Shown: in pieces, positions 1 to 20,421 of the stretch
Layout of the letters: each line of letters starts with the position of its first letter
How positions within the stretch are numbered: position 1 is the first letter of the stretch
Source: Thuidium tamariscinum
Taxonomy: Eukaryota > Streptophyta > Bryopsida > Hypnales > Thuidiaceae
Assembly (NCBI GenBank): GCA_947034885.2
Contig: OX344757.2
Span: 24,422,001 to 24,486,000 of the forward strand
Reading direction: 5' to 3'
DNA length: 64,000 bases
Notes under the pieces: model-generated
Databases searched by the model: none
The model's input: the letters and a program-made list of their open reading frames with translations, nothing else
What the model was told of the DNA's origin: nothing
Made by a program: the position numbers and the translations under genes

Positions 1-3000
1 ATAAACTTCGTTGCTGTGTGGCAATCTGAACACACTCGAAGGTTCTTGAACACCCGAATTGGCTCTCCAGGGGGTGTCCCCATGAGTCCATAAACAATAG
101 CCAACTTCTCACTATGGGAGCAAAGAGCAAGTTCTTTCTCCTCCTCATCAATGTTCCGCAACACTAGCCGGGTATCAGGAATGTAGCCTTCGGCCTTAAT
201 TGTCTCACTCAATCTCCTCAGCTCCGCATAGATCTCCTTCGCTTCTGGGTGAGAAGTATCCCCAACAACGAAGTCATGGACCTTGTTATCAACTTCAATC
301 CAGCTACGCCCTGGCTCCTTGCGTATACCTCTCTCCTGCATCATAGTGCGCACCCACAACACCTCCTCCCACTTGCCAGCTGCAGCATAGATATTCGAGA
401 GAAGCACGTATGCAGAAGCATCCATCGGTTCCAACTTGAGACGCTCATTAGCGGCAAGTTTGCCCAACTCCACATTGCCGTACGTTCTACAAGCACCAAG
501 CAAGGCTCCCCAAGTTGCACCATTTGGTTCCACTGGCATGTTCCCAATCAAGAGCTTTGCTTCCTCCAAATGTCCTGCTCGGCCAAGAACATCCACCATG
601 CAGTTACAAAGCACAACAGTAGGTTCGATGCCATCATCTTGTGTCATAGCGAGAAAAAGTCTACGGCCCTCATCCACAAGGCCAGCATGACTACAGGCCG
701 ACAACACTGCAACGAAGGAGATCTCATTGGGCTGGATACCATCAGCAATCATATTTTTAAAGACTTCCAGGGCTTCGAGCCCACATCCATGTTCTGCAAG
801 TCCATCGATCATCACAGTCCAAATGACTAAATCACGATCCTCCATCCTTTCAAAAACCACCCGGGCATCATTCAAACTGCCACAATTTGCATACATGTGA
901 ACAAGCGCAGTGCCAACACGCAAGTCTGACTCAAGTCCCGCATCGAGGACATGCCGATGAACCTCCTTCACCCACTCCAACCCTCCTGCGCCTGCACATG
1001 GATTTAGAATGTTCACATACGTGAAAATATCCGGCTTGAAGCCTTCCAGTTGCATTTGCAATAATCTTTCATAAGCTTCGTGCCCACAGCCATGTTCTGC
1101 AAGTCCACCAATCATCACGTTCCATGTGATTATATCACGATCCTTCATCCTCTCAAAAACTAGCCGGGCATCATCCACACTGTCAATCTTTCCATACATA
1201 TGAACCAGCGCACTGCCCACACGCATATCTGACTCAAGTCCGGCTTCAAGGACATGCCTGTGAACCTCCTTCACCCACTCTAAAGCCCCTGCACTTGCAC
1301 ACGGATTCAGAATGCTCGTATAAGTGAATGCATCCGGTTTAATGCCCTCCAGTTGCATTTGCAGAAACAAATCATACGCCTCACGACCACATCCGTGCTC
1401 TGCAAGTCCACCAATCATCACGTTCCATGTGACTACATCACGATCCTCCATCCTGTTAAAAACTAGTCGTGCATCATCCAAACTGCCACATTTAGCATAC
1501 ATGTGCACCAGCGCATTACCCATACGCAAATCCGACTCAGGTCTTGCTTTAAGGACGTGCCTGTGAACCTCCTTCACCCACTCCAAAGCTCCTGTGCTTG
1601 CACGCGGATTCAGAATGCTCAAATAGGTGGTTGCGTTCGGTTCCCAGCCCTCTCTTTGCATTTCGAGAAACAGATCATATGCCTCCTGCCCATGTCCATG
1701 CTCTGCAAGTCCGCCGATCATTGTGTTCCAGGAGATCACGTCGTGTTCCTCCATTCGCCCAAAAACTACTTGGGCATCATCAATACTGCCACAATTTGCA
1801 TACATGTGAATGAGCGAATTGCCAATACACACATCTGATTCAAGCCCAGCATGTCTTACATACGCATGAACTTCTTTGCCCCACTGCAAAGCTGATGGAT
1901 TGGCACAAGCCTTCAGGACGCTCGAAAAAGTATATGCATCTGGCTGGACCCCTTCCTGGCACATTTGATTGAAAAGTTTCATTGCTTTTTCAGCATGACT
2001 GTGCTTTGCATAACCTCCGATCATGATGGTCCAACTAAACACGTTCTTCTTCACAAGTTCATCAAACACTCCGCGTGCAGACTCCAATTCCCCACACCTG
2101 ATATACACGCTCGCTAGGTTGTTTGCCACATAACTATTCTGCTCCATTCTACTCTGGTTTATGTAGTCGTGAACCTGCTTCACGACATTAACTTTAAGGT
2201 TTTCCTCCTTCAAGCACCGTCTCAAAACTTCAACATACATGCGCGAGTTGATGGCCATGCCTTGTTCTAGTCGATTCTTCAAATTTCCAATTGCTTCAAT
2301 CGTGGTTCTTGCACTTTCCATGGGCATACCACCGCCACCACCCTGTACAATATGCCTCGACTGTCTTGCAGTAGTACACACAATGCTTCGTTTTCCATTG
2401 TGGCCCTTGGATAGCCTGATTCATCAATACAGTCTTCGTTAGGAAACCCTCAGAAAGAAGAACACTGATACACAAAAAGGAAAGGGTGCAAGGCCACCAA
2501 TGCCTTGTACTCACATATCTCAATATGAACAAAGTTGCATTCGTCCATTTGAATTCTTAACATCTCTCACATACAAAGCAAGTTTTAGAACACCATCCCA
2601 GTTTAAGTGCACCCAATAACCCAAAAAGTGATATCGGAGGGTATTGCACAAACAGAAATCTTCAAACTCACTCAAAATCAAATATTTCTAGATGCACCTA
2701 CTCTCATCACTAGACAAGGGAGCAAACTCAAACCCTAAAGTTACCTGCTTCCTTGTATTGTGTCTTGAGACTCTTTGGTGCGATAATCAACAGGGGGTTG
2801 CAATTCACCTTCAGTTGCCAAGTTGAGCATTGCCTTTACCCATGGTGGAGTTGACCAGCCATATATCCAAAGTGCTTTCCTTGCCACCTTATGTCTAAAG
2901 TCAGGAGATCTAAGATTCCTCTGTAGGCACCACAACCCATGATCGTAAAATGCTCATTCTGCATCCAACATAAACATGCAAGGAATATTTGTTGTTCATA

Positions 3001-3867
3001 CTGCAATGATCTGTGCGGTGTTCACTGCACTCTTTGACAACAAACAACGCAATTTCACACTTGCTGCTTCACTAACTGCCCACAAGTGCCCATGGCCTTG
3101 TACTTTACAAGCAAGAAACATCCCCGTCACTTGTTGACCCGAGCCTTGTATGCACTTTCATCTATCAAATAATCATACCTTATCAGCTCTATTGTCCCAC
3201 CACTGCGTAGGATCTGCAAAGTACTCTTTCCAAAGTTCTTCAACCGACTGTAGTTCACCTGAATCCACCGCAACATGCTTTATCCATGTCAGTCACATTC
3301 TCACCAACAGAGGCAAACTCGTTCTGTGAAAATGGGCATATGATACATACCTGAGGCATTGGAATTTGAAGGTGATCTCCTCCAAACTGATGTAAATGAT
3401 GAACACCTATTTGGTCCACTCCTTCGAATGTGAGAAGACAAGGGCAGGGACAAAGAAGGGAAGATTGGCCATGGAGACCTGAAGACTGTGATTGCGCAGA
3501 TATCCTGGGCACACAAATGTCAACACTCAGTCAACAAGTAACTTCGTACCATTTAAAACACACTTTCGCCATCAATACCGGGGTTTAGGGTTCGGTGAAC
3601 ATGTCTATATCCAGTTACGTTTGGAAAAGTCTGACAATGTCTTATCAAACATTGCTGTGAAGGAGACCTCATATTTCGACACATTTGTTGCCAACATGAC
3701 TACCGTAATCCATGTCACAAATCATCCAACCGCTAAATTCACTCACCTGTGCACCAGCTAGTCCAAGCTCCAACAAAAGGCTTCTCTTTTCTCTTCCACG
3801 CTGCAATTGTTGCCTACAACCTAAATCCCGCGACACCAATTGAGCTGGCAATCCCATCACTATCTGC
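1..3867 (-). repeat. Inverted duplication, left arm
   Basis: This arm matches 15869-20327 in opposite orientation across exons and introns. The 590-bp length difference is nearly all explained by two extra 303-bp PPR modules in the right arm. Similarity stops at 3867, just at a putative splice acceptor. Positions 1-723 are identical to 19605-20327; the rest has diverged visibly. The duplication continues beyond the left edge. Confidence 0.9.
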
Positions 3868-4946
3868 CTGCATGTAAGGATCCGACGTTGTGGATAGGCG
3901 GACCTGTTGCTGGTCGACGCCTAATATTGGTACCCTGGGTATTTAGGTTTGACTCATCAGCTTTCCTCTTCTCTTCTCTCTCTTTCCATTCTGCTGGCAT
4001 CACAGGCATGTTGCTCGTGGGCTGGAACTCCAGAACCATCGGTGTGGGATCAGGGATTGTGGCATCTGTGCTGTCGGACTAAAAACAGAGCACTGACAGA
4101 CACTCAGCAACAACATCTAACTGACAATTTGAAAAGACTCAAAAGAAACCCTTACGTGCAATGGATATTCTCATTCACTCCACCAGAACAGCTTCAAGAG
4201 CTTACCCCAGATCGATACTTCTCTAGCAGAGAGCAATGAACTTCTCCATGCCGACTAAACAGCTCTAACAAAGTATCGTCTTTCTAAAATACAAGTGGCA
4301 ATTATGAATGTAACAGACCACTCGATCTCAACACTCTTCGGAATCACACTAATTTGCAACTTCAACCCTAAAATTGGCGATAGGTGTCTCCATCAGCGGC
4401 TTTACTGGGCGTACTGGAGTTAGCATTAGAAAGCATAATACGGATCCTCCCATTCTTCACAGAACTGTCCAACTTCTCTCTCTAGCTCAATGCTATATCG
4501 CACTGTTCTCTTCCGGAACAGGACAATTCTAAACCTATTATCGCCCCACGTATTAATCCTTAAACCGTAAACCGCACCACATTATGGACCCGCACAAAGC
4601 CGAAACTAAAAACTCTGTCGCGGCATCGCAATGAGAAACATTGCCTTTGTTCAATTATTTGCAAAGCACACAACCTCGTTGATGCCGTTCTAACAGAGAG
4701 AGGAAAGAGATAAACGTCAGGAAGCAGAAGAGGAAAAGCTATGAGGTGGTGACTTACTGGAGAAGCAGAGCAGAACAGAGCATTTTGTGAAGCGTTCATG
4801 GTAGATTTCGCGGCGCAATTGAGGGACAGGCTCGGACCCCTGAAGGACGACGAGAGAGCTGCGACAGATGCACATGCGGGGGAGCTATGAGGAGAGGGAG
4901 AAGGCGAGACAGATGGAGAGGCGCGGGGAGAAAAGTGGATTGCCAT
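1..4946 (-). CDS. OSB-like PDF-motif / PPR-DYW fusion, copy 1 (3' end outside window)
   Basis: Inferred exons on the minus strand: 4946-4758 (ATG; 63 residues rich in Ser, Pro and Ala, like a chloroplast or dual transit peptide; donor GTAAGT), 4078 to about 3870 (borders unsure), a short exon ending 3747, 3485-3351, 3258-3179, 2920-2745 and 2415 to the window edge. The exons 3258-3179 and 2920-2745 encode a PDF motif (WWDNRADK, then SPDFRHK and ALW), the signature of plant organellar OSB single-stranded-DNA-binding proteins. The exon 2920-2745 ends in phase 2, and the acceptor at 2415 continues in frame into the PPR part: an N-terminal PPR region, four PLS modules, E/E+ and DYW with HSE and CSDC. 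The last ~30 residues lie beyond position 1. No stop interrupts 2415-1. An SSB fold between transit peptide and PDF motif is not recognisable by eye. Alternative: separate OSB-like and PPR genes, the PPR starting at ATG 2327. Confidence 0.72.
909..1817 (-). repeat. PLS modules in copy 1 (more diverged)
   Basis: Units start at 1817, 1514 and 1211 on the minus strand, with a fourth from 908 running into the E domain. The period is the same 303 bp as in copy 2, but the units differ from each other at many residues, as is usual for PPR proteins. Copy 1 therefore looks like the less homogenised state. Confidence 0.9.
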
Positions 4947-15868: not shown

Positions 15869-18800
15869 GCAGATAGTGATGGGACTGCCACCTCAATTGG
15901 TGTCGTGGGATTTAGATTGTAGACAACAATTGCAGTGCAGGAGAGAACAGAGAAGCTTTTTGTTGGTGCGTGGACTAGGTGGTGCACAGGTGAGTGAATT
16001 AAGCGGTTGGATGACTTGTGACATGGGTTGGACTACTGTGGTCATGCTGACCACAAATGTGTCGAAATATGAGGTCTCCTTTACAGCAATGTTTGATAAA
16101 GAGGTTGTCACATTTTTCCAAACGTAACCGGATATGAACATGGTTCACCGAACCCTAAACCCCGGTATTGATGGGAAGAGCGCTTTGAATGGTACGAAGT
16201 TGCTTATGAACAGAGTGTTGACGTTTGTGTACCCAGGATATCTGTGCAATCTCAGTCTTCAGGTCTCCATGGCCTATCTACCGTTCTTTATCCCTGCCCT
16301 TGTCCTCCCACATACGAGGCAGTGGACCAATCCGGTGTTCACCATTTTCATCAGTTTGGAAGAGATCACCTTCGAATTCCAATGCTTCAGGTATGTATCA
16401 TATGCCCATCGCCACAGAAAGAGTTTGCCTCTCCTGGTGAGAATGTGACTGACATGGATAAAGCATGTTGCGGTGGATTCAGGTGAACTACAGTCGGTTG
16501 AAGAACTTTGGAAAGAGTACTTTGCAGATCCTACGCAGTGGTGGGACAACAGAGCTGACAAGGTACGACTAGATAAAAGAAAGCGGATACAATACTCGGC
16601 TCAACAAGTGACGGGACGTTTCTTGCTTGTACAAGTCCATGGGCACTTGTGGGAACTTCGTAAAGCAACAAGTATGAAATTGCGTTGTTGAGTGGAGTGA
16701 ACACTGCTCAGATCATCAACAAATATTCCTGGAATATTGATTGTTAGATGCAAACTGAATATGAGACAGTTTTTTAGGATCTGATCATGGGTTGTGGTTC
16801 CTACAGAGGAATCCTAGATCACCTGACTTTAGGCATAAGGTGGCAAGGAAAGCACTTTGGATATATGGCTGGTCAACTCCATCATGGGTGAAGGCAATGC
16901 TCAAGTTGACAACTGAAGGGAGAATGCAACCTCCTGTTGATTATCGCTCCAAAGATTCTCAAGACACAACACAAGGAGACAGGTAACTTTAGGAATTGAG
17001 TTGGCTACCTTGTCTAGTGACTAGAGTAGGTGCATCTAGAAATATGTGATTTTGGGTGAGTTCAAGGATTTTTGTGTGTGCAATATGCTCTGTTCTTCCT
17101 TTTGGTTATTGGATGCACTTGAAGTGGAATGATTTGCAATGAATTGCTGTGTATGTGAGAGATATTAAGAATTCAAATGGATGGATGCAAATTTGTGGAT
17201 GTTGAAATATGTGAGTACTGGGCATTAGTGGTCTTGCACCCTTTCACTGTGTATCAGTGTTCTTCTTTCGAAGGGATTTCTATTGAAGACTCTATTGATG
17301 AATCAGGCTATCTAAGGGCTACAATGGAAGAGGATACATTGTGCCTAGTACTGCAAGAGAGTCGAGGCATATTGTACCGGGTGATGGCGGTGGTATGTCC
17401 TTGAAAACTGCAAGAAGCACGACTGAAGCAATTGGTATTTTGAAGAATGGACTAGAACAAGGCATGGCCATCGAGTCGGACATGTATGTTGAAGTTTTGA
17501 GACGGTGCTTGAAGGAGGAAAACCTTAATGTTAATGTCGCGAAGCAGGTTCACGACTCCATCAATCAGAGTGGAATGGAGCAGGACCGATATGTGGCAAA
17601 CAACCTAATGAGCGTGTATATCAGGTGTGGAGAATTGCAGGATGCACGTGGAGTGTTTGATAAACTTGTGAAGAAGAACGTCTTCAGTTGGAACATCATG
17701 ATCGGAGGTTATGCAAAGCACAATCATGCTGAAAAAGCAATGGAACTTTTCAATCAAATGTGCCAAAAAGGGGTCCAGCCAACTGCATTTACTTTCTCGA
17801 GCATCCTGAAGGCATGTGCCGATCCATCAGCTTTGCAGTCGGGCAAAGAAGTTCATGCGTATGTAAGACATGCTGGGCTTGAATCAGATGTGCGTGTGGG
17901 CACTGCGCTTGTCCACATGTATGGAAAGTGTGGTAGTTTGGTTGATGCTCGGCTAGTTTTTCACCGGATGGAGGATCGTAATGTGATCACGTGGAACGTG
18001 ATGATTGGTGGACTCGCACAGCATGGATGTGGGCACGAAGCATATGAACTACTTCTTCAAATGAAACATGAAGGCCTCGAACCCAATGCATTCACTTATG
18101 CGAGCATTCTTAATCCATGTTCAAGCGCAGGGGCTTTGGAGTGGGTGAAGGAGGTTCACAGGCATGTCCTCAAAGCGGGACTTGAGTCGGATTTGCGTGT
18201 GGGCAACGCGCTTGTCCACATGTATGGAAAGTGTGGTAGTTTGGTTGATGCTCGGCTAGTTTTCGACCGGATGGAGGATCGTAATGTGATCACGTGGAAC
18301 GTGATGATTGGTGGACTCGCACAGCATGGGTGTGGGCACGAAGCATATGGACTGCTTCTCCAAATGAAACAAGAAGGCCTCGAGCCCAATGCATTCACTT
18401 ATGCGAGCATTCTGAATCCATGTTCAAGCGCAGGGGCTTTGGAGTGGGTGAAGGAGGTTCACGGGCATGTCCTCAAAGCGGGACTTGAGTCGAATTTGCG
18501 TGTGGGCAACGCGCTTGTCCACATGTATGGAGAGTGTGGTAGTTTGGTTGATGCTCGGCTAGTTTTCGACCGGATGGAGGATCGTGATGTGATCACGTGG
18601 AACGTGATGATTGGTGGACTCACACAGCGTGGATGTGGGCACGAAGCATATGAACTACTTCTTCAAATGAAACAAGAAGGCCTCGAACCCAATGCATTCA
18701 CTTATGCGAGCATTCTGAATCCATGTTCAAGCGCAGGGGCTTTGGAGTGGGTGAAGGAGGTTCATAGGCATGTCCTCAAAGCGGGACTTGAGTCGAATTT

Positions 18801-20327
18801 GCGTGTGGGCAACGCGCTTGTCCACATGTATGGAGAGTGTGGTAGTTTGGTTGATGCTCGGCTAGTTTTCGACCGGATGGAGGATCGTGATGTGATCACG
18901 TGGAACGTGATGATTGGTGGACTCGCACAGCATGGGTGTGGGAGTGAAGCATATGAACTGCTTCTCCAAATGAAACAAGAAGGCCTCGAACCCAATGCAC
19001 TCACTTATGTTAGCATTCTGAATCCATGTTCAAGCGCAGGGGCTTTGGAGTGGGTGAAGGAGGTTCACAGGCATGTCCTTGAAGCCGGACTTGAGTCAGA
19101 TATGCGTGTGGGCAGTGCGCTGGTTCATATGTATGGAAAGATTGACAGTGTGGATGATGCCCGGCTAGTTTTCGACCGGATGGAGGATCGTGATGTGATC
19201 ACGTGGAACGTGATGATTGGTGGACTCGCACAGCATGGGTGTGGGCACGAAGCATATGGACTGCTTCTCCAAATGAAACAAGAAGGCCTCGAACCCAATG
19301 CATTCACTTATGCGAGCATTCTGAATCCATGTTCAAGCGCAGGGGCTTTGGAGTGGGTGAAGGAGGTTCACAGGCATGTCCTCAAAGCGGGACTTGAGTC
19401 GGATTTGCGTGTGGGCAACGCGCTTGTCCACATGTATGGAGAGTGTGGTAGTTTGGTTGATGCTCGGCTAGTTTTCGACCGGATGGAGGATCGTGATGTG
19501 ATCACGTGGAACGTGATGATTGGTGGACTTGCACAGCATGGATATGGGCACGAAGCCCTGGAAGTGTTCAACAATATGATTGCAGACGGTGTGGAGCCTA
19601 ATGTGATCTCCTTCGTTGCAGTGTTGTCGGCCTGTAGTCATGCTGGCCTTGTGGATGAGGGCCGTAGACTTTTTCTCGCTATGACACAAGATGATGGCAT
19701 CGAACCTACTGTTGTGCTTTGTAACTGCATGGTGGATGTTCTTGGCCGAGCAGGACATTTGGAGGAAGCAAAGCTCTTGATTGGGAACATGCCAGTGGAA
19801 CCAAATGGTGCAACTTGGGGAGCCTTGCTTGGTGCTTGTAGAACGTACGGCAATGTGGAGTTGGGCAAACTTGCCGCTAATGAGCGTCTCAAGTTGGAAC
19901 CGATGGATGCTTCTGCATACGTGCTTCTCTCGAATATCTATGCTGCAGCTGGCAAGTGGGAGGAGGTGTTGTGGGTGCGCACTATGATGCAGGAGAGAGG
20001 TATACGCAAGGAGCCAGGGCGTAGCTGGATTGAAGTTGATAACAAGGTCCATGACTTCGTTGTTGGGGATACTTCTCACCCAGAAGCGAAGGAGATCTAT
20101 GCGGAGCTGAGGAGATTGAGTGAGACAATTAAGGCCGAAGGCTACATTCCTGATACCCGGCTAGTGTTGCGGAACATTGATGAGGAGGAGAAAGAACTTG
20201 CTCTTTGCTCCCATAGTGAGAAGTTGGCTATTGTTTATGGACTCATGGGGACACCCCCTGGAGAGCCAATTCGGGTGTTCAAGAACCTTCGAGTGTGTTC
20301 AGATTGCCACACAGCAACGAAGTTTAT
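15869..20327 (+). repeat. Inverted duplication, right arm
   Basis: Counterpart of 1-3867. About 12 kb of unrelated DNA separates the arms. The homology begins abruptly at 15869, downstream of an unrelated exon-like region, so this arm probably is the inserted or rearranged, 5'-truncated copy. Homology past 20327 cannot be judged, because the left arm leaves the window. Confidence 0.88.
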
Positions 20328-20421
20328 CTCAAAGGCGACTAGACGAGAGATTGTTGTGAGGGATGCTAATCGCTTTCACCACTTCCAAGATGGCGTGTGT
20401 TCTTGTGGTGATTACTGGTGA
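15869..20421 (+). CDS. OSB-like PDF-motif / PPR-DYW fusion, copy 2 (5' truncated)
   Basis: Inferred exons: 15869-15989 (weak), 16256-16390 (or from 16237), 16483-16562, 16807-16982 and 17307-20421. The PDF motif is split over the third and fourth (WWDNRADK; SPDFRHK). Phase 2 at 16982 joins in frame to the acceptor after GATGAATCAG at 17307; 29 further codons precede the first ATG (17395), exactly as in copy 1. The last exon has 1037 codons: an N-terminal PPR region, six 101-residue PLS modules, E/E+ (RSWIEV) and a canonical DYW cytidine-deaminase domain (HSE, CSDC, ending GDYW, stop TGA). DYW-PPR proteins convert C to U in organelle RNA. Homology to copy 1 stops at 15869, so the transit-peptide exon is missing, and I see no clear replacement. 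Without a targeting peptide the protein may be mislocalised or the copy may rely on a new 5' exon. The long frame is intact and may be expressed from ATG 17395. Confidence 0.75.
17905..19419 (+). repeat. Five tandem 303-bp PLS modules in copy 2
   Basis: Units start at 17905, 18208, 18511, 18814 and 19117; a sixth, starting at 19420, runs into the E domain. Each is 101 codons, one P-L-S triplet (35+35+31 residues). Units 1-4 differ from each other at only a few bases. The start of unit 5 (KIDSVDD instead of KCGSLVD) is different and nearly identical to unit 3 of copy 1. Such uniformity indicates recent expansion or homogenisation by unequal exchange. Confidence 0.93.

Follow-up and report, generated by a model that had tools for sequence, protein, structure and literature searches.

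The locus at 15879-20421 (+) of the window, the whole stretch of 64,000 nucleotides of Thuidium tamariscinum DNA analysed here, is a single five-exon gene whose domains follow one another in the order transit-like part, split PDF motif, PPR repeats, E, E+ and DYW. We hold it very probable that this is one gene with a predicted product of 1211 residues (the sum of its exons), in which a transit-like N terminus and the PDF motif precede a PLS-PPR tract, E, E+ and DYW, that it belongs to an amplified family, and that the members of this family act as PDF-assisted organellar editors which obtained their PDF by the capture of exons from an OSB-type gene. To the extent that sequence can show it, the fusion of the PDF to the PPR part is real. 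We take the motif to be the PDF motif of OSB proteins, the same motif being carried by an OB-fold gene of this genome (L052, described below).

Structure of the gene and of its inverted copy

The preliminary description had proposed that two PDF exons are spliced in frame to a PPR-DYW sequence, and this proposal stands: exons 3, 4 and 5 (Table 1) make up one frame with a terminal stop only, exon 4 does end in phase 2 ahead of a GT, and the acceptor placed before exon 5 is there in the sequence (GATGAATCAG, 17297-17306). To these we added the two exons upstream of the PDF, which were absent from that description and whose splice phases match; together they encode 88 residues with 10 R, 16 S, 3 D and 1 E. 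The Pfam matches in exon 5 of copy A are PPR repeats, E, E+ and DYW, and PLS-type repeats followed by E, E+ and DYW are the mark of the DYW-type PLS PPR editing factors. Allowing up to two mismatches, the 16-base context of the acceptor occurs in the window only at 17297 (+) and 2425 (-), and in none of 100 shuffles, while the bare 10-base acceptor is found at 570 places genome-wide and therefore is no marker by itself. Were intron 4 retained, translation across the exon 4 donor (16983) would meet a stop immediately (AGG TAA) and give a transit-PDF protein of about 174 residues; because of this stop right after exon 4, a product with the PDF only is possible.

An OB fold was looked for in the exons upstream of the PPR part and was not found, and a Pfam search with the N-terminal 203 residues (up to E 10) gave no match, the OB fold included. 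The PDF motif itself has no matching family in Pfam or in NCBIfam, and its best match among solved structures (E 1.6) is not credible. The earlier name of an OSB-PPR fusion is thus right about the PDF motif, which is present, but it overstates the contribution of OSB, since the OB fold does not accompany the motif; for the same reason the gene is better described as a variant of the DYW PPR proteins than as a member of the OSB proteins.

The inverted copy (copy B) equals copy A in exon lengths, phases and splice sites, its exon 5 being cut by the window, and the phase, the acceptor and the 29-codon distance to the PPR ATG that had been reported as repeated hold in A and B alike. The absence of indels, also reported, is true for A versus B but does not extend to copy L046, which carries a 6-base in-frame deletion in the linker. 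In the alignment of A and B, homology begins at about 15865, the DNA further upstream being different. The 5' region of copy B (window 3869-4140, minus strand) is unlike that of A, with homology starting at a CAG just before exon 1, and copy B looks as if a new 5' end had been joined at an acceptor site. At their other end, A and B are identical across 723 bases ending at the window end (window 19605-20327 and 1-723), as compared with 84% identity over the aligned 3.1 kb upstream, which suggests gene conversion between the inverted copies.

Table 1. Coordinates in the window of the exons of both copies and of the C-terminal domains of copy A.
Feature	Positions	Strand	Remarks
Copy A exon 1	15879..15989	+	ATG start, 37 codons, ends in phase 0; transit-peptide-like together with exon 2
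Copy A exon 2	16237..16390	+	Arg/Ser-rich, 51 codons + 1 base, phase 1
Copy A exon 3	16483..16562	+	PDF motif, first part (LWKEYFADPTQWWDNRADK)
Copy A exon 4	16807..16982	+	PDF motif, remainder (RNPRSPDFRHKVARKALW...) plus tail; ends in phase 2
Copy A exon 5	17307..20421	+	29-codon linker, PPR PLS repeats, E, E+, DYW, stop
E motif	19846..20034	+	PF20431, residues 847-909 of 17308-20421
E+ motif	20047..20121	+	PF20430, residues 914-938 of 17308-20421
DYW deaminase domain	20140..20418	+	PF14432, residues 945-1037, E 9.9e-43; complete
Copy B exon 1	3747..3857	-	
Copy B exon 2	3351..3504	-	
Copy B exon 3	3179..3258	-	PDF, first part
Copy B exon 4	2745..2920	-	PDF, second part
Copy B exon 5	1..2415	-	cut by window start; open frame in the genome of 837 aa

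The junction across the family, its amplification and the origin of the PDF

The whole genome (363 Mb, 19 contigs), searched in six frames for the PDF and the linker, gave at least 151 matches. Because 150 of the 247 candidates of the PDF search received a score and the list of matches is incomplete, the PDF counts are lower bounds. Among the matches listed, 109 PDF places were picked by hand (those with only exon 3 or the linker being omitted), and they comprise 46 near copies, with exon 4 identities of 69-97%, and 63 diverged ones. Searching the genome with PF14432 revealed 86 DYW domains, at least 67 of which have a PDF upstream (same strand, at most 9 kb away); seen from the other side, all 46 near and 21 of the 63 diverged PDF places among the matches listed lie upstream of a DYW, and the same census contains one DYW-PDF pair in the wrong arrangement. 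A second PDF search brought one more PDF, a weak match (E 1.8e-5) interrupted by two stops and situated 3 kb upstream of a DYW, and the count rose to at least 68 of 86. When only DYW frames of 500 aa or more are considered, at least 64 of 75 have a PDF upstream and 11 are without a detected PDF; the junction was read in 22. Among the matches listed, a DYW within 9 kb is missing for 42 of the 109 PDF places, several of which have stops in the match. The two stand-alone PDFs that were read (L049 and L050) are short ORFs with no intron, in which a hydrophobic stretch precedes the PDF, and directly upstream of the ORF of L050 there is a frame that may be protein-kinase-like.

The junction of the near family was read in 21 distinct loci, namely 20 of the 46 near loci (copy A among them) and copy B. 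These 20 are the top-ranked matches to the window's PDF, so that the sample covers 21 of the 46 near junctions, and intact copies may be over-represented because the loci read are the best PDF matches plus copy B. In all 21, the ATG and the GT/AG pairs of the four introns are present and the frame stays open across the PDF-PPR junction, exon 1 keeping its ATG, its GT donor and its length of 111 throughout; not a single stop occurs in exons 1-4 plus the first 394 bases of exon 5, and the exon 5 frames continue to the DYW in the 20 loci read through. Length differences from A that are not multiples of 3 affect the exons in none of the 21 loci and introns 1-4 in 12, 1, 10 and 12 of them, respectively, and read-through of each of the four introns gives stops in all 21. 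The HSE-type, CxxCH and C-terminal DYW signatures are all found in 20 of the 21; in copy B the last of them fall beyond the window end. These data on the frame and on exon and intron lengths lend support to the earlier suggestion that one protein would join the PDF to the PPR-DYW part.

Selection was quantified over the near family as dN/dS, which is 0.117 for the PDF core, 0.288 over the last 300 codons (20 complete copies), 0.50 for the first PPR part and 0.59 for exons 1-2; it reaches 2.25 for the exon 4 tail with the linker and 2.29 for the 29-codon linker alone, and neither of these is conserved. The residues W, P, WWDN, NP, PDF, HK, KALW, TP and W of the motif are invariant across four PDFs of this genome. 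A neutral test for the absence of stops gave P = 0.014 for exon 1, 0.043 for exon 2, 0.16 for exon 3 and 0.057 for exon 4, and was not significant for the linker (P = 0.34); the near copies, with pS about 0.1, are of recent origin and do not count as independent.

The amplification went along with changes in the number of repeats. Among the near copies listed, the DYW-ending frames of 44 of 46 are within 6 of 736 + 101k aa (37 exactly) and go up to 1544, the remaining two frames measuring 280 and 790 aa; 101 residues correspond to one S-P-L triplet, and many repeat units of 101 residues are near-identical. The PPR code residues alternate mainly between N/T and N/D, and all 21 arrays read differ, several of them being incomplete because some S motifs escaped the repeat finder (leaving gaps of 202 or 303). 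Over 110 inner repeats, positions S5, S31, P5 and P35 are more variable than average, weakly so (P = 0.04; L5 omitted). Among the matches listed, 14 of the 46 near copies are found no more than 1 Mb from a known contig end (P 3e-7, assuming uniform and independent placement on 11 chromosomes), and 15 of the 46 are clustered at C4:20.3-23.0 Mb. Upstream of the ATG, 16 of the 21 loci have at least 1.7 kb in common with another copy; for L040, L044 and L048 the shared stretch measures 183-302 bases, and L038 and copy B share nothing adjoining the ATG; this pattern therefore indicates that whole segments were duplicated and that the breaks came later.

The one diverged DYW-linked copy that was read, L051, has an exon-2-like peptide (SIRCSSSSVWRK), a PDF split at the same place as in copy A, an exon 4 ending in phase 2 and the acceptor GGATGGGTCAG, with the same phases as in copy A. 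Its linker aligns ungapped with a score of 28, against a shuffle mean of -13.7 (0 of 5000 as high). Since L051 shares the junction and its phase, the junction predates the recent amplification. In most of the other diverged DYW-linked PDFs the match begins only at about query residue 23-28, which a shared PDF intron would lead one to expect; at C7:21244530, C4:20156682 and C4:20202915 it extends further, and the PDF intron may be absent there. The search of the genome with PF00436 (OB fold) gave 4 matches at two loci, neither of them a PDF-PPR-DYW locus. At one of these loci, on C1, a PDF follows about 0.8 kb downstream in the same orientation; this locus is the one true OSB gene found (L052), with OB-fold peptides plus the PDF. 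Its PDF reads ...WWDNRAKK, a GTGAGG intron, PSPKSPDFKHK..., that of copy A WWDNRADK, the intron, RNPRSPDF, and the intron stands at the same residue, in phase 0. This coincidence points to an OSB-type origin of the fused PDF and fits the capture of its exons from an OSB-type gene; the donor could be OSB itself or stand-alone PDF ORFs like L049 and L050.

Proposed mechanism and competing readings

DYW proteins bind RNA through their PPR tract, which places the DYW at the edited cytidine. Organellar C-to-U editing, in which the PDF would provide an additional grip or a tether, is in our view the most likely function of the family. The protein would enter an organelle by means of its transit-like exons 1-2, its PPR tract would select the transcript, and the DYW would deaminate a cytidine at the 3' side of the tract; because of this geometry, the N-terminal PDF would contact single-stranded nucleic acid on the 5' side of the PPR footprint, or else it may tether the editor to the nucleoid. 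The PDF exons would have been gained by exon capture from an OSB-type gene, the OB fold being left behind, after which the family would have expanded by segmental duplication. The presumed binding activity of the PDF in the fusion rests on statements about Arabidopsis OSB proteins in the available parts of two reviews (PMC6963530, PMC4166229), the first of which states that the PDF of AtOSB1 suffices for ssDNA binding.

It is unlikely, though compatible with the fusion, that the gene makes both products, the spliced fusion and the PDF protein of about 174 residues with intron 4 retained. The stop directly after exon 4 and the two stand-alone PDF ORFs read in this genome would agree with such a dual output, but GTAA is a common 5' splice sequence, and a GTAA donor in phase 2 after AG yields TAA without any selection for a stop. 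A farther-reaching role of the fusion seems to us quite improbable: the PDF would tie a programmable cytidine deaminase to nucleoids or ssDNA, the enzyme would act during transcription or even on DNA, and the changing PPR arrays would recode or shut down organellar transcripts that are selfish or unwanted, as part of an RFL-like arms race, beyond classical editing sites.

That two neighbouring genes are present, one a short transit-PDF gene whose end lies in intron 4 and the other a PPR-DYW gene of its own that begins at an ATG in exon 5, is highly improbable. The PDF places without a DYW nearby (42 of 109 among the matches listed, the two read being short stand-alone ORFs), the immediate stop beyond the exon 4 donor and the poor conservation of the linker would all suit it, but in 4 of the 21 loci (L031, L039, L046 and L047) the downstream PPR ATG is replaced by K, I, T or V, and in L051 the first Met of exon 5 comes only at residue 88. 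A separate PPR part would moreover be without the transit-like exons, phase and acceptor are identical in the 21 near copies and L051, and 46 of 46 near PDFs among the matches listed are upstream of a DYW. That the PDF exons no longer serve any function and spread as passengers of recent duplication is scarcely credible: the youth of the family means that little decay is expected, and the junction was read in the best-scoring loci and copy B only, but the PDF core keeps its low dN/dS while the adjoining introns change length out of frame, and the PDF is still open in the diverged L051.

Significance and comparison with known systems

If a single gene encodes the PDF, the PPR tract and the DYW together, as we prefer, the PDF-PPR-DYW protein is a new form of DYW PPR protein and not an OSB member. 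The family would link proteins of organellar DNA maintenance with RNA editing, it would offer a testable case in which an added nucleic-acid-binding motif accompanied a burst of editing factors, and its PDF might possibly be useful in engineered editors.

Several known systems can be set beside it. The Restorer-of-fertility-like (RFL) PPR genes are like the family here in being a young, clustered group of PPR genes that has been amplified and varies in repeat number and code; they are P-class genes not known to carry a DYW or a PDF, whereas the present family has both. With the OSB proteins, the fusion family has the PDF motif in common, the PDF intron of this genome's OSB gene being at the same residue and phase; the fusion family differs from them in that no OB fold was detected and in that its PDF is N-terminal to the PPRs, the PDF of OSB proteins being at the C-terminal end (PMC4166229, available part). 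The same part of this review gives Physcomitrium patens one OSB with one PDF. Our search of open-licence papers found none describing a PDF motif in a PPR protein, and in the only paper found with both "PDF motif" and "pentatricopeptide", the PPR text, in the part available, concerns RNA polymerases (PMC6963530).

The DYW-type PLS PPR editing factors, for example the ten of P. patens (PMC9459714, available part), are alike in PLS repeats, E, E+, the DYW deaminase signature and a transit-like N terminus. Compared with the P. patens factors as they are described there, the family here adds the N-terminal PDF and the near-identical 101-residue units. According to the same source, DYW proteins are few in the funariid mosses described, P. 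patens having 10 for 13 sites and F. hygrometrica 9; against the 10 of P. patens stand the 86 DYW matches of the present genome, whose 11 long DYW frames with no PDF detected come near the P. patens set in number.
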